From: Myxococcales bacterium
GTDB lineage: Bacteria; Myxococcota_A; Polyangia; Polyangiales; Ga0077539
Direction of reading: 5' to 3'
DNA: 64,000 bases
NCBI GenBank assembly: GCA_013298625.1
Contig: JAAFIF010000002.1
Span: forward strand, 124,001-188,000
In this document: in pieces, positions 53,609 to 58,374 of the stretch
Numbering within the stretch: the first letter of the stretch is position 1
Layout: every line of letters starts with the position of its first letter
Translations under genes and position numbers: made by a program
Notes under the pieces: generated by a model
Database searches by the model: none
What the model saw: the letters and a program-made list of their open reading frames with translations, nothing else
Told to the model about the DNA's origin: nothing

Positions 53609-53747
53609 ACAGCGGGAGGAGGAGCGCGCCAGACTTTTTGGATGTCCTGCCGTTAGACGACGCCCGCATCGAGAGCGGGCGGCGGGATTCGAACCCGCAT
53701 CTTCGGTTTTGCAGACCGATGAAATCCAGCGCTGTACTGCCCGCCAT
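53609..53747 (-). ncRNA. Permuted tRNA-like RNA, unit 3 (Cys-type)
   Basis: Read on the minus strand. GCAGTACAG (53740-53732); helix GCGCTGGAT (53732-53724) pairs with GTCTGGCGC (53634-53626). Between them lies TTTCATC, then the anticodon arm TCGGT-CTGCAAA-ACCGA (anticodon GCA), T-arm with TTCGAAT, acceptor strand CGCCCGC, loop TCTCGAT, acceptor strand GCGGGCG (7 of 7 pairs), a D-arm GTC/GAC and ATCC-AAAAA. The first loop base is T, the discriminator expected of tRNA-Cys. The outer stem pairs 53747-53740 with 53616-53609. Either a Y-RNA-like tRNA mimic or a permuted tRNA-Cys gene. Confidence 0.7.
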
Positions 53748-53754
53748 GAATCAA

Positions 53755-53878
53755 CCGAGAGAATGATCGAGACGACTCAATTCGTGCGCTCTATCCGACT
53801 GAGCTACGCGTCACCGCGGCGGGACTCGAACCCGCGACATCACGATCCGATGAAGAAATTCGTCTCTGTACTGCTCGG
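53755..53878 (-). ncRNA. Permuted tRNA-like RNA, unit 2 (Arg-type)
   Basis: GCAGTACAG (53874-53866), helix GAGACGA (53866-53860) with TCGTCTC (53775-53769), all seven paired. TTCATC follows. Anticodon stem TCGTG (53845-53841) pairs with CACGA (53786-53782). T-arm GCGGG-TTCGAGT-CCCGC, then only a 4-bp acceptor CGCG/CGCG closed by GTGA, a GNRA tetraloop, then a fully canonical D-arm (TAGCTC..GAGCG). A closed 4-bp acceptor cannot be aminoacylated, so this unit is a tRNA mimic rather than a tRNA gene. The outer stem is short (CCGAG/CTCGG). Confidence 0.7.
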
Positions 53879-53893
53879 AGTGTACGACGCCGC

Positions 53894-54060
53894 GACGCTG
53901 ATCGAAACGCAGGAAGGAGAGGCGCTGCAGGCTTTTTTACGTGCTCTACCGGCTGAGCTACCTGGTCCCAAGGTGACCAGGGCGGGACTCGAACCCGCGA
54001 CCCCGTGCTCTTCAGGCGATGTAGCCCGCTGCTGTACTGCCCTGCGCTTCGATCAGCGCC
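53894..54060 (-). ncRNA. Permuted tRNA-like RNA, unit 1 (Phe-type), with 20-bp terminal stem
   Basis: Bases 54060-54041 pair with 53913-53894 over 20 positions (two G-U), forming a long terminal stem. Inside are GCAGTACAG (54040-54032) and helix GCGGGCT (54029-54023) with AGCCTGC (53933-53927). Then CATC, GC-CTGAAGA-GCACG (anticodon GAA), T-arm TTCGAGT, acceptor CCTGGTC, loop ACCTTGG, acceptor GACCAGG (7 of 7), D-arm GCTC/GAGC, CGT and AAAAAA. Joining CGT to GC would give a perfect tRNA-Phe with A73. An ordinary tRNA-Phe lies at 57.8 kb. Confidence 0.72.
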
Positions 54061-54110
54061 GCGGAGCGAGAATGGACAACTCGACGTGACGAAATACGGT
54101 AAACGAGCGT

Positions 54111-54150
54111 GGCCCCCGCGCCGGACGGGAGGGAGAGTGGCGCGGGGGCC
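54111..54150 (-). other. GC-rich spacer hairpin
   Basis: Perfect 12-bp inverted repeat (GGCCCCCGCGCC / GGCGCGGGGGCC) with a 16-base loop, five bases after tRNA-Glu. No T tract follows, so it may be a processing or transcript-end barrier rather than a classic terminator. Confidence 0.6.
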
Positions 54151-54154
54151 GCGG

Positions 54155-54226
54155 TGACTCCGACGGGAATCGAACCCGTGTTGACTGGGTGAAAACCAGT
54201 GTGCCTGACCATTAGCAGACGGAGCC
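54155..54226 (-). tRNA. tRNA-Glu(UUC)
   Basis: 72 bases, no encoded CCA. Acceptor GGCTCCG/CGGAGTC with one G-U, D-stem TGC/GCA, anticodon stem ACTGG/CCAGT with loop TTTTCAC (anticodon TTC), T-arm ACGGG-TTCGATT-CCCGT. Discriminator A. Arms look functional. Confidence 0.85.
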
Positions 54227-54237
54227 GTGGCGATCAG

Positions 54238-54326
54238 CGGGGAGAGGGAGATTCGAACTCCCACGACGGATTCGTCCGTCGGACGGTTTTCAAGACCGCT
54301 ACCTACGCCCATAGGAGAGTCTCCCC
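54238..54326 (-). tRNA. tRNA-Ser(UGA), unusual D region
   Basis: 89 bases, class II. Acceptor GGGGAGA/TCTCCCC, anticodon arm GCGGT-CTTGAAA-ACCGT (anticodon TGA), long variable arm GACGGA/TCCGTC, T-arm GGGAG-TTCGAAT-CTCCC, discriminator G. The 20-base D region (CTCTCCTATGGGCGTAGGTA) lacks the usual T8 and D-stem and instead shows CCTA/TAGG. Confidence 0.8.
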
Positions 54327-54339
54327 GAATACGAAACAG

Positions 54340-54414
54340 CGGTCACGACGGGGATCGAACCCGCTCACACACGGTTGACAACCGTGCCGCTCAACCAGAA
54401 TAGCGCTCGTGACC
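54340..54414 (-). tRNA. tRNA-Asp(GUC)
   Basis: 75 bases, no encoded CCA. Acceptor GGTCACG/CGTGACC, D-stem CGCT/AGCG, anticodon arm CACGG-TTGTCAA-CCGTG (anticodon GTC), T-arm GCGGG-TTCGATC-CCCGT, discriminator G as expected for Asp. Confidence 0.88.
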
Positions 54415-54424
54415 ATTCATTGAA

Positions 54425-54447
54425 CCTCCCGCGACGGCCGCGGGAGG
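54425..54447 (-). other. GC-rich spacer hairpin
   Basis: CCTCCCGCG and CGCGGGAGG (9 bp) with a five-base loop, between the HNH gene stop and tRNA-Asp. It may terminate or separate the HNH message. Confidence 0.55.
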
Positions 54448-54452
54448 GCTGC

Positions 54453-54959
54453 TCAGCACGCCTCGGGCAGGTAGCCCATCCACGTGTCGTGCTGCGCGTC
54501 CTCGGCGAGGACAGGAGGCATGTACGCCGGGCGAACCGGCGGCCGCGCAAGCGTGAGCCCGGCCTCGTGGGGAGTTCGGTCCGCCTTGTCACGGTTGCAG
54601 TCCGTGCAGGCGGTCACGATGTTCGACCACTCCGTGAGCCCGCCGCGAGAGCGCGGCAGGACGTGGTCGAACGTGAGCCGCGAGGCGCCCGGTCGCGCGC
54701 CGCAGTACTGGCAGGTGAACTCGTCCCGTCGGTACACGTTGCCGCGACAGAACTTCACGCCCTTGCGACCCCGACCGCGCGCGCCCCTTCGCAGACGCAC
54801 GACGGACGGCATGTCCATCGAGTGCGACGCAGAGCGCACCTCGGCCTCGTAGGCCTCGAGCAGCTCGGCCTTGCCGAGGACGAGCAGCGTGACGGCGCGT
54901 TGCCAGGAGATCACCTTCACGGGCTCGAAGCCCGCGTTGAGCAGCAGCGTGGCGACCAT
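54453..54959 (-). CDS. HNH endonuclease
   Basis: 168 residues from ATG 54959, GAGGAA just upstream. N-terminal MVATLLLNAGFEPVKVISWQ, then a zinc-bound HNH nuclease: CQYCG, TFDHVLPRSRGG (catalytic His), SNIVTACTDCN. This family is widespread on chromosomes and not limited to mobile elements; its target is not established. It lies within the tRNA island, between tRNA-Leu and tRNA-Asp. Confidence 0.9.
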   Translation of the reverse strand: MVATLLLNAGFEPVKVISWQRAVTLLVLGKAELLEAYEAEVRSASHSMDMPSVVRLRRGARGRGRKGVKFCRGNVYRRDEFTCQYCGARPGASRLTFDHVLPRSRGGLTEWSNIVTACTDCNRDKADRTPHEAGLTLARPPVRPAYMPPVLAEDAQHDTWMGYLPEAC

Positions 54960-55006
54960 GGGATTCCTCACATTGATATGTTCATCGGTCTTCTCGGTAC
55001 GGGTCT

Positions 55007-55057
55007 GCGATCGAGAGGTCGGCGCGCCGGCGTGATTGCCGGCCGCGCAGCGATCGC
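55007..55057 (-). other. Long spacer hairpin
   Basis: Outer arms GCGATCG/CGATCGC, inner arms GCGCG/CGCGC and CCGGC/GCCGG with one bulged C and a six-base loop. It fills the gap between tRNA-Leu(GAG) and the HNH gene. Confidence 0.5.
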
Positions 55058-55072
55058 GGAGCGTGTGTTGTC

Positions 55073-55148
55073 TGGTGCGCCGAGCGGGAGTCGAACCCGC
55101 AAAACCTGGACTCTCATTCCAGTGTGTCTCCCGTTTCACCACCGGCGC
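55073..55148 (-). tRNA. tRNA-Leu(GAG) with short variable loop
   Basis: 76 bases with encoded CCA. Acceptor GCGCCGG/TCGGCGC, D-arm GTG/CAC with AAACGGGAGA, anticodon arm CTGGA-ATGAGAG-TCCAG, T-arm GCGGG-TTCGACT-CCCGC. The D-arm is Leu-like but the variable region is only five bases (GTTTT), whereas bacterial tRNA-Leu has a long variable arm. Confidence 0.8.
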
Positions 55149-55153
55149 GGTGA

Positions 55154-55430
55154 GCGATCGACTCGAAATCACGGTCCCTTCCGTCGAACCCCGTCGCAAG
55201 GACGAGAGGAGGCAGAGGGTGTCCTCGCTTGTGATTCGTCGGTGACGCGGCACGGGTTCCCCTCCGTGCGCGTGTCCGACACGCGAGCTCTGTCCCCTTC
55301 GGTGCACCGGGCGGGAGTCGAACCCGCACCATCTCCGGAGTCTGAGTCCGGCGCCTTTGCCGATTTGACCACCGATGCATGCTCGTCGCCGAAAGGGCGA
55401 CGGAAGGGACCGCAATTTCGAACCGATCGC
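55154..55430. repeat. 33-base inverted repeat flanking tRNA-Leu(CAG)
   Basis: 55154-55186 and 55398-55430 are inverted copies matching at 29 of 33 positions (CGACGGAAGGGACCG, two differences, ATTTCGA, two differences, CGATCGC). They enclose tRNA-Leu(CAG) and about 115 bases of spacer that has no gene. Differences are clustered in two dinucleotides. Could be cassette ends or a long-range RNA stem. Confidence 0.7.
55303..55378 (-). tRNA. tRNA-Leu(CAG) with short variable loop
   Basis: 76 bases, CCG instead of CCA after the A discriminator. Acceptor GCATCGG/CCGGTGC, D-stem GTC/GGC, anticodon arm CCGGA-CTCAGAC-TCCGG (anticodon CAG), variable loop AGATGGT (7 bases), T-loop TTCGACT. Like the other Leu tRNA here it lacks the long variable arm. 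Confidence 0.8.
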
Positions 55431-55434
55431 GCGG

Positions 55435-55507
55435 TCAGGGCGGCCGGATCTGCCCCGGCGGCCTCCTGCTCCCAAGGCAGGCGTTCTTCTAGCTGAACTA
55501 CACCCTG
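55435..55507 (-). tRNA. tRNA-Pro(UGG) with aberrant T-loop
   Basis: 73 bases. Acceptor CAGGGTG/CGCCCTG with C1-G72, D-stem GTTC/GAAC, anticodon arm CCTGC-CTTGGGA-GCAGG (anticodon TGG with G37), discriminator A. The T-loop is GGCAGAT in place of TTCRANY and the D-loop (AGCTAGAA) lacks GG, so the normal D-loop/T-loop contact cannot form. May be a pseudogene or specialised tRNA. Confidence 0.7.
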
Positions 55508-55533
55508 AGTATCGTGCGAAGTGCACAGCGCTT

Positions 55534-55710
55534 CGATCGTCGAGCGAGGATGGTCGAGGCAGGTCTTTCGCTTGGACCCCTTCGCTCTCGCGTCGGGGCC
55601 TTCAGCGTTTCGCCTCTCCAGACTGCGGAGAGGGATGGATTCGAACCACCGTCGCGTTTTACCGCGACTGACCGGATGAAACCCGTCTCTGTACTTCGCT
55701 CGACGAATCG
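55534..55710 (-). ncRNA. Permuted tRNA-like RNA, unit 4 (Ser-type), next to the Ro60 gene
   Basis: Outer stem: 55710-55696 pairs with 55547-55534, 14 bp with one bulged T. Then AAGTACAG (55696-55689), helix GAGACGGG (55689-55682) with CCTGCCTC (55563-55556, one mismatch), TTTCATC, a class II variable arm GTCGCG/CGCGAC, T-arm GGTGG-TTCGAAT-CCATC, acceptor CCTCTCC, loop GCAGTCT (starts with G, the Ser discriminator), acceptor GGAGAGG (7 of 7). The D-arm is not recognisable and a GGCCCC/GGGGTC hairpin replaces part of the anticodon arm. Lies 75 bases after the Ro60 stop. Confidence 0.68.
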
Positions 55711-55785: not shown

Positions 55786-57504
55786 TCAGAATCGCGCGCG
55801 GATGTCGTCGAGCGTCGCGTTGGTGCGCGCGGGCTCCGAGCGCGCCGCGGACGCGGGCGCCTCGGTGGTCGGCGGCACTTCGACCGCGGCGAGCCCGCGC
55901 TCGAACTCGCCCACGGTCCGCAGGATCTTCTCGCTGAACCCGCTCACGAGGTTGACCCTCGGATCGCTGGTCGAGAGCGACGCCGTGCCGTAGCCCGCGA
56001 GGTCCACCGAGTGGACCACGAGCGCGGGGTTGAGCGCGGCTCGGTACTTCGCCACGGCGCCCGCGAAGGTGTCCGGCGAAGTCGCGCTCGAATAGCTCTG
56101 CATGTCCGAGAAGACGATCAGGCGGTCTGCGCGAATCTTCTTCTCGATCATGAGCTCGAGCACCCTGTGCGTGTTGGTCGCGTGTCCGACGTTGGTCGAC
56201 GCCTGGCGGTTCATCGCCGTCAGGATCGAGTCCGACACGGACACGGGCACCAGCCTCGCGCTCTCGCCGAAGACGATCAGGTGAGCGTCATCGGAGATTC
56301 GCTGCGCGATGGCCGCCATCAGATTCGCCGCGGCCTGGTGGGTCACGATGCTCTTGGCGGACACCGGCGAGCTCATCGAGCCCGAGTTGTCCGACGCGAC
56401 CACGGTCACGCCAGGCAGCCGCGCGAGCGCGCTCGAGGCGTGCACGAGCGCGGTCTCGAGCGCCGCTGCGACGACGGCGTTCTTGCCCTTCAGCAGCCCC
56501 GCGTCGGCGAGCATCTTGGACGCCGAGTAGAAGCGAAACGGCAATTGCTTGCTCTTCGCGACCTCGCGCGGATCCGCGATGCGCGCGGCCAGCGTCTCTG
56601 GGTCGACGCCAGTCGTGAGCATGTTTCGCAGGTTTCGCAGCAAGGCCATGTAGCCCATCTGCGGCAGGACCGACTCCCACACGGCGCGGTTGGCGCCGCC
56701 GAACTGCGAGACCACGACCTCCCAGTTGGCGTGCGAGCTCGTGATGAGCGCGCGCGCCTCGTCGTCGAAAGAGCTCTTCTTGGCGAGCGCCTTTCGCGCG
56801 GCGATCACTGGGGTCGCGGCCGCGTCCACGACCTCGCCAGAGACGAGGTACTTGTAGACGGGCTGCGACAGACCGAAATCCTTCGAGCGGTCGATCATTC
56901 GAAGGACGTCCCTGAAGGTCGGGCGATCGGTCGTGTCGTACTTCATCAGCTGCGCTTCAGAGAACTTGCCGATCGCGTCGGCGAGCCCGCGCTTCAGCGA
57001 GTTTGGCAGCTTCTGGTTGCGCTTGTTCGCGCCGACGCCCGAGGCGAAGAGCGCCAGGTACGCAGCGAAGACCTGCCGCACTTCGTCCGCGCGCTGCACG
57101 ATCTTGCGAGCGTACTGGCGGACAAACGGCTTGGTCTTCGGCTCGCTCGCGGCGATCGCGAGCAGGACCTGCGGGGTCGAGCGCACGTTCATCTCGGTGC
57201 GCGCCCACAGGGCGAGGGCGAGCAGGTCGCGCGGGTTGTCGCCGCGGGCGATCTGCTTTGCGGTCTCGATGATGCTCGCCGCTTCGGAGGTGAGCCCGAG
57301 CGCCGAGCCCTCGTCGGACTCCGCGGGCTTGGAGTAATAGTTGGGCTCGTTGAAAAACGAGCTGCCGAGCATGGTGAGCATGCGCAGCGAGGGGTCGGTG
57401 ATGGCAAACGCCTCGCCGCCTGCGCGGTTGAGGCACACGTCTGCAGAGCTCGCCTGCGCGGCGGGCGCAGGCGGAGCGCCCTTCGTCATCGCGAATCGCG
57501 CCAC
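55786..57504 (-). CDS. rsr: TROVE-domain Ro60 orthologue (Rsr)
   Basis: 572 residues from the GTG at 57504, which has AAGGAG eight bases upstream. Residues about 20-370 form the helical TROVE ring (LARGDNP-type ARGDNPRDLLALALWARTE, FRDVLRMIDRSKDFGLSQPVYKYL, NLRNMLTTGVDPETLAARI, SKQLPFRFYSA). A von Willebrand A domain follows with MIDAS motif DNSGSMS at about 385 and a later FSDMQ. Ro60 proteins bind misfolded RNA ends in the ring and Y RNA on its outer face, and in bacteria help RNA turnover under stress. It sits 42 bases after tRNA-Tyr and just before permuted unit 4. Confidence 0.92.
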   Translation of the reverse strand: MARFAMTKGAPPAPAAQASSADVCLNRAGGEAFAITDPSLRMLTMLGSSFFNEPNYYSKPAESDEGSALGLTSEAASIIETAKQIARGDNPRDLLALALWARTEMNVRSTPQVLLAIAASEPKTKPFVRQYARKIVQRADEVRQVFAAYLALFASGVGANKRNQKLPNSLKRGLADAIGKFSEAQLMKYDTTDRPTFRDVLRMIDRSKDFGLSQPVYKYLVSGEVVDAAATPVIAARKALAKKSSFDDEARALITSSHANWEVVVSQFGGANRAVWESVLPQMGYMALLRNLRNMLTTGVDPETLAARIADPREVAKSKQLPFRFYSASKMLADAGLLKGKNAVVAAALETALVHASSALARLPGVTVVASDNSGSMSSPVSAKSIVTHQAAANLMAAIAQRISDDAHLIVFGESARLVPVSVSDSILTAMNRQASTNVGHATNTHRVLELMIEKKIRADRLIVFSDMQSYSSATSPDTFAGAVAKYRAALNPALVVHSVDLAGYGTASLSTSDPRVNLVSGFSEKILRTVGEFERGLAAVEVPPTTEAPASAARSEPARTNATLDDIRARF

Positions 57505-57546
57505 TGGGGAGACTCCTTGTGAATGTTGCGGTTGAGAGAGAAAGAG

Positions 57547-57628
57547 TGGATGGGGAGGGACTCGCACCCCCAGTTGTCAGGGACCGAACCGTTTACAGCG
57601 GCCGTGGCTCTCTTTTGCCGGCCCATCC
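57547..57628 (-). tRNA. tRNA-Tyr(GUA), atypical D-loop
   Basis: 82 bases, class II. Acceptor GGATGGG/CCCATCC, D-stem GGC/GCC with loop AAAAGAGA (no GG), anticodon arm GGCCG-CTGTAAA-CGGTT (two G-U), variable arm GTC/GAC, T-loop TGCGAGT. C replaces T8. Discriminator A. Confidence 0.78.
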
Positions 57629-57640
57629 GTGTTGATGCAG

Positions 57641-57711
57641 TGGAGCAGGAGGGAATCGAACCCTCGTCTCGGGTGTGCAAGACCCGCGTCTTCCCGCTGG
57701 ACGACAGCCCC
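57641..57711 (-). tRNA. tRNA-Ala(UGC)
   Basis: 71 bases. Acceptor GGGGCTG/CTGCTCC includes the G3-U70 pair that marks tRNA-Ala, with one T6-T67 mismatch. D-stem GTC/GAC, anticodon arm CGGGT-CTTGCAC-ACCCG (anticodon TGC), T-arm GAGGG-TTCGATT-CCCTC, discriminator A. Confidence 0.82.
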
Positions 57712-57758
57712 GATGCCGCGCGACGACCTCTCGGCCGCCGCGCGAACAATGAAACATG

Positions 57759-57811
57759 GCACGCTCGTCACCCGATCGAACGAATTGCGATCGGGCCCTC
57801 GCAGCGCGTGC
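57759..57811 (-). other. Long spacer hairpin
   Basis: Between tRNA-Phe and tRNA-Ala. Outer arms GCACGC/GCGTGC and inner arms CCCGATCG/CGATCGGG with a nine-base loop. Confidence 0.5.
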
Positions 57812-57832
57812 TCTCTGCGAGAGAATTGACAG

Positions 57833-57905
57833 TGGAAACCTCCGGGATCGAACCGGATCCTCCTGGTCTTCAGCCAGGCGCGCGGACCAACTACGCCAGG
57901 TTTCC
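57833..57905 (-). tRNA. tRNA-Phe(GAA)
   Basis: 73 bases in normal order. Acceptor GGAAACC/GGTTTCC, D-stem GCG/CGC, anticodon arm CCTGG-CTGAAGA-CCAGG, T-arm TCCGG-TTCGATC-CCGGA, discriminator A. Its presence makes the Phe-type permuted unit at 54.0 kb redundant as a tRNA. Confidence 0.88.
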
Positions 57906-57910
57906 ATAAC

Positions 57911-57946
57911 CGGCGCCGCTGCAGGATTGCCCGTGCAGGGGCGCCG
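57911..57946 (-). other. Spacer hairpin
   Basis: CGGCGCC/GGCGCCG outer arms and CTGCA/TGCAG inner arms with a ten-base loop, between tRNA-Asn and tRNA-Phe. Confidence 0.5.
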
Positions 57947-57956
57947 CGAACGACAG

Positions 57957-58028
57957 CGACGGAGGAGGGATTCGAACCCACGTCGGGCTGGTTAACAGCC
58001 AGCTGCTCAGCCTCTGAGCTACTCCGCC
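57957..58028 (-). tRNA. tRNA-Asn(GUU)
   Basis: 72 bases. Acceptor GGCGGAG/CTCCGTC, D-arm GCTC/GAGC, anticodon arm GCTGG-CTGTTAA-CCAGC, T-loop TTCGAAT with one T-T mismatch in the T-stem, discriminator G as usual for Asn. Confidence 0.9.
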
Positions 58029-58031
58029 ACG

Positions 58032-58102
58032 ATGTCCGCCGCGCCCTTCGTGAGCGCCGCTCGCGAGGCGAGCGACAGCGCGCGAAGGCGCGGGCCGGAC
58101 AT
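58032..58102 (-). ncRNA. Long hairpin in the tRNA island, possible structured RNA
   Basis: ATGTCCG/CGGACAT plus CCGCGCC(C)TTCG/CGAAGGCGCGG give a stem of about 18 pairs with one bulge, capped by a second hairpin CGCTCGC-GAG-GCGAGCG. It lies four bases from tRNA-Asn. No tRNA-like arms are seen. The remaining spacer to 58301 holds nothing I can support. Confidence 0.4.
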
Positions 58103-58301
58103 TGTGTTGTGTTGTGCGCCTCGACCGTGCTCGCAGCAGGATCGCCGCGAGCGACGCCGAGGCGCGTCGTTCATTCGTCACGTCTGAGTTGTCATAGACC
58201 CGTGCGCGGTCATCGCCGCCGTCGTGGGCAGCGCTGTGCGCGAGGGGGATCCGCAGCGCCGGTCGCAAGTGCGCCGCGCTGTCGATCACCCTGTTGATCG
58301 G

Positions 58302-58374
58302 TCGACCCGAAGGGGCTCGAACCCTTACGCAGACGGTTAAGAGCCGTCCTCTCTGCCTCTCGAGTTCCAGGTCG
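58302..58374 (-). tRNA. tRNA-Lys(CUU)
   Basis: 73 bases, CCG after the discriminator. Acceptor CGACCTG/CGGGTCG, a D region with CTC/GAG and GG, anticodon arm GACGG-CTCTTAA-CCGTC (anticodon CTT), T-arm AAGGG-TTCGAGC-CCCTT, discriminator A. The acceptor begins with C, unusual for tRNA-Lys. Confidence 0.85.

Follow-up and report, generated by a model that had tools for sequence, protein, structure and literature searches.

What is encoded where the 3' half of a transfer RNA (tRNA) stands before its 5' half, next to a gene for a Ro60 protein and among ordinary tRNA genes? This question is raised by contig JAAFIF010000002.1 of a Myxococcales bacterium (GenBank assembly GCA_013298625.1), of which positions 124,001 to 188,000 were analysed, a stretch of 64,000 nucleotides called the window here. 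Four units of this kind, A to D, lie on its minus strand. A sequence-only reading had taken them for a family of circularly permuted, tRNA-like Y RNAs of the YrlA type. We find that the four units are very probably a YrlA-type variant, and they are treated below as predicted Y RNA genes. What is new is an anticodon arm on the YrlA fold, which is present in units A and C.

Organisation of the four units

The units and their parts are as follows, numbered from the first letter of the window.

53609..53747, minus strand: unit A, YrlA-type, with the anticodon hairpin UCGGU-CUGCAAA-ACCGA (anticodon GCA), the closed acceptor CGCCCGC-UCUCGAU-GCGGGCG and a D arm
53703..53719, minus strand: anticodon arm of unit A
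53732..53739, minus strand: MAGUACAG of unit A
53755..53878, minus strand: unit B, YrlA-type, without a 7-base anticodon hairpin, with a possible stem CACGA/UCGUG and the acceptor CGCG-GUGA-CGCG
53866..53873, minus strand: MAGUACAG of unit B
53894..54060, minus strand: unit C, YrlA-type, with the anticodon hairpin GC-CUGAAGA-GC (anticodon GAA) and a split anticodon stem
53961..53981, minus strand: closed acceptor of unit C, CCUGGUC-ACCUUGG-GACCAGG, in which 5 of 7 pairs have both partners changed in one or more of 15 aligned sequences (alignment A4)
54007..54017, minus strand: anticodon hairpin of unit C (positions 30-40); the partners of positions 41-43 (ACG) are 27-29 (CGU), which lie downstream of the D arm
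54032..54039, minus strand: MAGUACAG of unit C
55534..55710, minus strand: unit D, Ser-like and Y-RNA-type, with a long variable arm, a T arm and a closed 7-bp acceptor; its counterpart is G001_S
55710-55696/55547-55534, minus strand: outer stem of unit D, with an inner helix at 55689-55679/55568-55556 placed by complementarity
55689..55696, minus strand: MAGUACAG of unit D

In all four units the T arm and the 3' acceptor strand lie ahead of the 5' acceptor strand, as the sequence-only reading had stated. This is not the order of tRNA genes, as had also been said, but it is a known order, that of YrlA. A D arm is present in A, B and C, and perfect acceptors of 7 base pairs (bp) are found in A, C and D, joined by 7-base loops that begin with U, A and G, respectively; both counts agree with the earlier ones. 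The motif GMAGUACAG, said to be common to the four units, is found in each of them. MAGTACAG occurs four times in the 64-kilobase (kb) window, always inside units A to D, where shuffled sequences lead one to expect 0.39 copies (maximum 2).

The minimum-energy folds of A, B and C follow a shared plan, which consists of an outer stem, an asymmetric internal loop whose 5' side holds AGUACAG, an inner helix, a UUCAUC or UACAUC linker and a module. The tRNA core is entered through the anticodon stem. The order in unit C is anticodon hairpin, 3' half, closed acceptor loop and 5' half, and its 5-bp anticodon stem is split across the two halves. The inner helix, previously described as paired in every unit, appears in these three folds; in unit D, and likewise in some sister units, it is absent from the minimum-energy fold and was placed by complementarity.

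An anticodon arm had been read in all four units, and this stands for two of them. A 7-base anticodon hairpin is confined to A and C, with the loops CUGCAAA and CUGAAGA. The halves of unit B can pair over 5 bp (CACGA/UCGUG), a pairing partly used in the alignment to Rfam family RF02553, and leave no 7-base loop; its minimum-energy fold has a different hairpin with a 5-base loop at the place of the anticodon. In B, GUGA closes an acceptor of 4 bp, with the consequence that the 3' and 5' acceptor strands of this unit overlap. Unit D has neither a D arm nor an anticodon hairpin, as read from its sequence and fold.

Covariation of the stems

The structure of the units is well supported. An initial stem-pairing test with many free registers was weak (five pairs in 15 of 28 cases, controls having a mean of 8.0 and a maximum of 13); fixed-register tests were used next. 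Eight C-type units from five genomes, paralogues included, have 93.0% of 345 cells paired, compared with 81.0 +/- 1.2% when shuffled and 32-43% when the partners are slid. Changes on both sides of a pair occur in 42 cells of these units (13.6 +/- 2.8 shuffled) and include both parts of the anticodon stem. Four A-type units (alignment A2) have 97.9% of cells paired. In a set of 15 hairpin units, 13 from Myxococcota and two from phages, which were chosen partly for having the hairpin, 96.4% of cells are paired (76.6 +/- 1.6 shuffled, 27-46 slid). Both-side changes occur there at column pair 11-19 of the hairpin and at column pair 22-94 of the split part. The covariation first read from the four units is borne out by these homologues.

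Conservation of the anticodon arm

Positions 34-36 are the most divergent of the segments measured. They differ in 14 of 18 comparisons (0.78) among A-type units and in 64 of 84 (0.76) among C-type units, where the comparisons mix paralogues; both values are near the random level. The divergence of A-type units is 0 in AGUACAG, 0.06 in the T arm, 0.10 in the D arm, 0.11 in the acceptor stem, 0.29 at loop positions 32, 33, 37 and 38, 0.33 in the anticodon stem and 0.62 (0.615) in the acceptor loop. For C-type units it is 0.06 in AGUACAG, 0.09 in the T loop, 0.145 at positions 8-26, 0.33 (0.329) in the acceptor stem, 0.37 (0.371) in the T stem, 0.41 at positions 32, 33, 37 and 38, 0.41 (0.414) at positions 39-43 and 0.56 (0.562) in the acceptor loop.

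U33 and A38 are each kept in 11 of 12 bacterial A- and C-type units. The A-type slot of four genomes keeps its body, U33 and A38 and has the anticodons GCA (Cys), UCC (Gly), AUU and UUA. The C-type anticodons are GAA, AUU, GAG, UCC, GAA, CUU, ACG and GAU. For ordinary tRNAs of the arrays, the amino acid is unchanged in all 12 comparable slots (two of these only between genomes G001 and G002), with a wobble change in three. When the two halves are joined, ARAGORN calls a tRNA in 11 of 11 A- and C-type units (G000, G001, G002 and G006), including Asn(att) twice and Stop(tta); this joined set omits the C-type unit of G012, unit B and its like, unit D and its counterpart, and the core-less units.

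Twenty-six units, folded and classed by eye, comprise permuted cores with the hairpin, cores without it, anticodon stem-loops only and other hairpins. CUGGA-UUUUGGC-UCCAG and CAGGU-UUUGUAA-ACCUG are stem-loop-only examples from G001, and in the sister arrays such units have a compensatory stem change (CAGGU/ACCUG versus CGGGU/ACCCG). The changing anticodon in matched slots, the constant ordinary tRNAs and the stem-loop-only units show that the units are not decoding tRNAs. The shape of the anticodon arm is conserved and its decoding is not.

Relationship to YrlA and other known systems

Passages of one paper describe the YrlA domain as resembling the D, T and acceptor arms of tRNA, and report that YrlA serves DusA and TruB as a substrate and binds PNPase through its tRNA-like domain (PMC8394870). 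Salmonella YrlA (PDB 6CU1) superposes on tRNA with a circular permutation, according to a passage of another (PMC11472068). Units A, B and C share with YrlA the permuted order of T arm, closed acceptor and D arm, set between the strands of a long stem, and a Ro60 (TROVE) gene adjoins the array; unit D departs from this order. YrlA as described is without an anticodon arm, as is B, whereas A and C add one with a 7-base loop. Further differences from YrlA are that AGUACAG stands at the place of GAAUGC in order-level relatives, and that several units occur per array, some of which, in sister genomes, are cut down to the anticodon stem-loop. No report of an anticodon arm in YrlA stands in the listed titles, abstract openings and passages that the literature search covered, the primary YrlA papers (Chen 2014 and Wang 2018) lying outside it.

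RF02553 matches unit B with 53.4 bits (E 2.9e-11), unit C with 44.7 bits (E 9e-9) and unit A weakly with 21.5 bits (E 0.047). None of these reaches the curated gathering cut-off of 69 bits, and unit D has no match at E<=10. The matches in seven searched phage Ro60 loci are also below 69 bits (best 55.9), and 3 of 144 relatives reach it. The units are therefore filed as a YrlA-type variant and not as a YrlA member. The earlier assignment to YrlA-type Y RNAs survives in this qualified form. The fold, the matches of B and C (and weakly A), the adjoining Ro60 gene and the same fold in phage Ro60 loci speak for it, while the low scores, the lack of a match and a D arm in unit D and the added anticodon arm of A and C do not fit YrlA as known.

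Neither model search was used as a count of prevalence. RF02553 at E<=0.1 matched 86 of 144 genomes but also 10 of 14 controls. The R1 model gives unit C, which is in its training set, 98.5 bits and unit A, which is outside it, 59.5 bits. It matches 255 of 377 genomes at 1e-6, a figure set aside because 5 of 16 folded matches (14 from the R1 search and two from other loci) were tandem ordinary tRNAs.

The circularly permuted tRNA genes of algae and archaea also have the 3' half upstream of the 5' half, with a short insert at the acceptor ends (passages of PMC3978253). Those genes mature by bulge-helix-bulge splicing, whereas here the anticodon is unconserved and some units cannot yield a tRNA. 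The array resembles the tRNA gene clusters of phages and, as far as the available accounts describe them, of Mycobacterium, and Ro-like genes also occur in phage arrays. It differs from these in lying on a large bacterial contig with housekeeping-type genes, as judged from open reading frames, and in being partly replaced by Y-RNA-type units. The ROT/TROVE proteins of jumbo phages have been grouped with RNA repair in passages of PMC7824862.

RNAs that resemble attacked tRNAs are also known from phage T5. The AriB nuclease of PARIS cuts Lys(UUU), Thr(UGU) and, to a lesser extent, Asn(GUU) and Thr(CGU), and is blocked by tRNA variants of T5 (passages of PMC12409363). Thr(UGU) and Asn(GUU) are among the loops of the phage units described below. 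T5 supplies tRNA variants that escape, whereas the units here, with their closed acceptors, would be mimics only.

The Ro60 gene, the tRNA array and its relatives

The neighbouring genes are the following.

55786..57567, minus strand: TROVE/Ro60 (Rsr-like) protein gene, 593 amino acids (Pfam PF05731, E 4.9e-31; vWA_Ro60, E 1.6e-11)
54153..55507, minus strand: ordinary-order tRNA genes Glu, Ser, Asp, Leu, Leu and Pro (ARAGORN)
57640-58374: further array tRNAs Ala, Phe, Asn and Lys (ARAGORN)
54453..54959, minus strand: HNH endonuclease-domain protein gene inside the array (Pfam HNH_5, E 9.8e-14)

The Ro60 protein matches the TROVE protein 9l5y (E 7.6e-18) and Deinococcus radiodurans Rsr (2nvo, E 8e-12) in the PDB, and its gene lies upstream of unit D, its end 75 bases away. 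With the exception of Ser, every array tRNA is confirmed by Rfam at its cut-off. The two array tRNA-Leu genes (55301-55378 and 55073-55148, minus strand) are 78 and 76 bases long and seemingly without the long variable arm typical of Leu. A normal set of tRNAs is found elsewhere in the genome, Cys(gca) and Phe(gaa) among them, and three places in the genome match RtcB. With normal Cys and Phe tRNAs present, the idea that the permuted genes are the sole copies of these was rejected.

Other readings of the array were also set aside. A normal-order tRNA-Cys at 53673-53744 (ARAGORN; Rfam 40.5 bits) has a poor D arm, with 2 of 4 D-stem pairs non-standard in the Rfam alignment, and is not kept in some relatives: its 5' acceptor is the outer-stem strand, which is changed in the other three genomes, and ARAGORN calls its counterpart a tRNA-Gly in G001 and nothing in G002 and G006. 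The ARAGORN tRNA-Cys at 54561-54644 on the plus strand lies inside the HNH gene and was dismissed as spurious. The possibility of a self-splicing group I intron was dropped, the flanks of about 67 nucleotides being too short by the intron sizes generally known.

The HNH protein looks like a conserved partner of these islands. Its homologues (44-87% identity) occur at 19 distinct loci of 41 searched. At least three tRNA genes accompany it at 13 of the 19 and a Ro60 match at 8, one locus (L104) having neither; the scan covered all but five.

The Ro60 query matched three loci among the named genome contigs. Pfam TROVE matches occur in at least 25 of 144 relatives, a lower bound, as nothing is found in G014 where tblastn yet gives a 23% Ro60 match. 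Ro60 of this lineage (at least 59% identity) is found in G000, G001, G002, G006 and G012, and AGUACAG units are present in 5 of 5 of these genomes. In four of these genomes such units share the contig of Ro60; in G002 they stand in the syntenic array, on a different contig. G012 has two AGUACAG units directly upstream of Ro60 (L057, 790-980), in which other hairpins replace the tRNA core and the anticodon loop, and one additional unit on a further contig. The sister genomes hold nine (G001), seven (G002) and four (G006) units. Gene order agrees between G001 and the window, running Lys, Asn, Phe and Ala tRNAs, Ro60, the Ser-like unit, Pro, Leu, Leu, HNH, Asp, Ser, Glu, further units and a metallophosphoesterase; G001 has extra tRNAs and units. 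Five further loci, from relatives of the same taxonomic order (L091, L095, L101, L102 and L103), have 19-35 tRNA genes per 10-15 kb stretch with a Ro60 match among them. YrlA-type units there seemingly have anticodon hairpins in L091, L095 and L101, and none in L102 and L103.

Phage and viral Ro60 loci

The fold is also found beside Ro60 genes of phages. The scan covered 164 Ro60 loci of phages and viral contigs among the matches listed (1.59 Mb) and asked for a T arm, a closed acceptor, a D arm and an inner helix of at least 7 bp; anticodon-stem pairs were no selection criterion. It gave at least 108 distinct units in 87 loci, of which 60 have an anticodon hairpin, 21 are without one, one has both forms and 26 have neither. 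Positions 27-28 pair with 43-42 in 92 of the 108 units, compared with a shuffled mean of 25.9 (maximum 36) and with 11, 36 and 13 units at offsets of 0, 2 and 3. Loops of 7 bases closed by a 2-bp hairpin are present in 58 of the 108 units, and those of 4, 5, 6, 8, 9 and 10 bases in 24, 8, 6, 8, 12 and 16.

U33 occurs in 56 of the 60 hairpin loops, versus 7 of 21 at the same place in hairpin-less units. A38 is also present in 56 of 60, but A stands at this place in 17 of the 21 hairpin-less units too. The commonest loops are Asn(GUU), with 16, and Thr(UGU), with nine; among the 432 ordinary tRNAs of 163 of the 164 loci, these two account for 17 and 18. Position 36 of the 60 loops differs from that of ordinary tRNAs in the same loci (p 3e-5 by chi-square, without correction for relatedness). 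Positions 36-38 read UAA (36) or GGA (15) in 51 of the 60, and A36 and C36 are rare (three each). U36-A37-A38 and G36-G37-A38 are t6A- and m1G-type contexts.

The 60 units form 44 clusters at 80% similarity, and again similar units have different anticodons. The viral contigs L305, L306 and L314 carry similar YrlA units with the loops CUGUUAA, CUAUUAA and CUGUGGA, a turnover like that in the bacterial arrays. One anticodon-bearing unit, in Xanthomonas phage 10KY502B, is annotated as tRNA-Thr in GenBank. A unit of Gordonia phage Neville is probably anticodon-bearing, as read by alignment, but lies outside the 60.

Discussion

The explanation that we favour on balance for these observations jointly is that the units are Y RNAs of the YrlA fold beside Ro60, that A and C carry an anticodon arm, and that they probably serve, bound by Ro60, as tRNA mimics that would occupy enzymes of the anticodon loop. 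The outer part with AGUACAG would be the Ro60 site, and the closed acceptor would prevent aminoacylation. The displayed core may compete with or bait anticodon-loop enzymes, whether cutting or modifying, nucleases first, and the turnover of the triplet would track a changing set of such enzymes. In unit B, which has no 7-base loop, and unit D, which has no D arm, the same scaffold would carry other effector modules. The decoy step itself, in which the displayed loop engages these enzymes, is put forward tentatively. A hint at such a function is the suggestion, raised for YrlA in a Salmonella study, of competitive inhibition of an anticodon nuclease (PMC7790460). More speculative still is a wider suggestion, in which anticodon-bearing Y RNAs form a separate class common to phage Ro60 loci and myxobacterial Ro60/tRNA islands. 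These would be a Ro60-held, non-chargeable decoy set in which the anticodon is swapped in evolution against the tRNA-cutting defence or toxin enzymes met.

Several points weigh against this explanation. The RF02553 scores fall short of the cut-off in every case, unit D scoring nothing. B, D and the two G012 units beside Ro60 are without an anticodon loop, so display cannot be the sole job of the scaffold. Passages of the Salmonella study state that YrlA is no substrate of the anticodon nuclease studied (PMC7790460). Lys(UUU), the first target of AriB, is found in 0 of the 60 phage loops, though GUU and UGU, which AriB also cuts, are abundant; its absence argues against explaining the units simply by PARIS. 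Relaxed constraint on a loop of which only the shape matters would also account for the free turnover of the triplet. Finally, the acceptor loops change fast too, as do the T stem, the acceptor stem and anticodon-stem positions 39-43 of C-type units.

The main alternative is that the units are YrlA-type tethers, in which the anticodon arm docks the Ro60 ribonucleoprotein on tRNA-handling partners such as modification enzymes, synthetases and PNPase, with no blocking of nucleases. We consider this unlikely, although it is in keeping with the predominance of U36-A37-A38 (36 of 60) and G36-G37-A38 (15 of 60) in the phage loops and with the action of DusA and TruB on YrlA and the binding of PNPase by its tRNA-like domain, as given in passages of PMC8394870. 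A fixed partner leaves the saturated change at positions 34-36 and the variety of anticodons unexplained.

Less probable again is that the anticodon loop has no role of its own and is a leftover of the tRNA from which the Y RNA arose. Saturated variation of the triplets would be expected of a relic, and units without the hairpin do occur alongside (unit B and 21 of 108 phage-locus units). However, the 7-base length, U33 and the stem pairing are kept while positions 34-36 vary, the sister arrays retain the stem-loop without a tRNA body and with a compensatory stem change, and position 36 is biased relative to ordinary tRNAs of the same loci, at the uncorrected p value given above.

Very improbable are genuine circularly permuted tRNA genes, in which the transcript would be cut at the inner helix, its ends sealed to a circle (for example by RtcB) and the acceptor loop opened by RNase P and RNase Z, with functional tRNAs for Cys and Phe as the product: the 11 joined units called by ARAGORN, the 7-bp acceptors with tRNA-like discriminators and the three genomic RtcB matches agree with such genes, but matching slots become AUU and UUA, of which UUA would read a stop codon, the junction register as read differs between A and C, the acceptor strands overlap in B and in like units of G001 and G002, and anticodon-only units cannot become tRNAs.

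The role of bacterial Ro60 and its Y RNAs is still largely open. It has been proposed in print that YrlA is an inhibitor of an anticodon nuclease, yet YrlA is described without an anticodon arm. A class of Y RNAs with such an arm, whose triplet turns over while the shape of the loop is kept, and which occurs in bacteria and in many phage Ro60 loci, makes this idea directly testable. If the idea is true, Y RNAs, phage tRNA arrays and tRNA-cutting immunity would be joined in one story.

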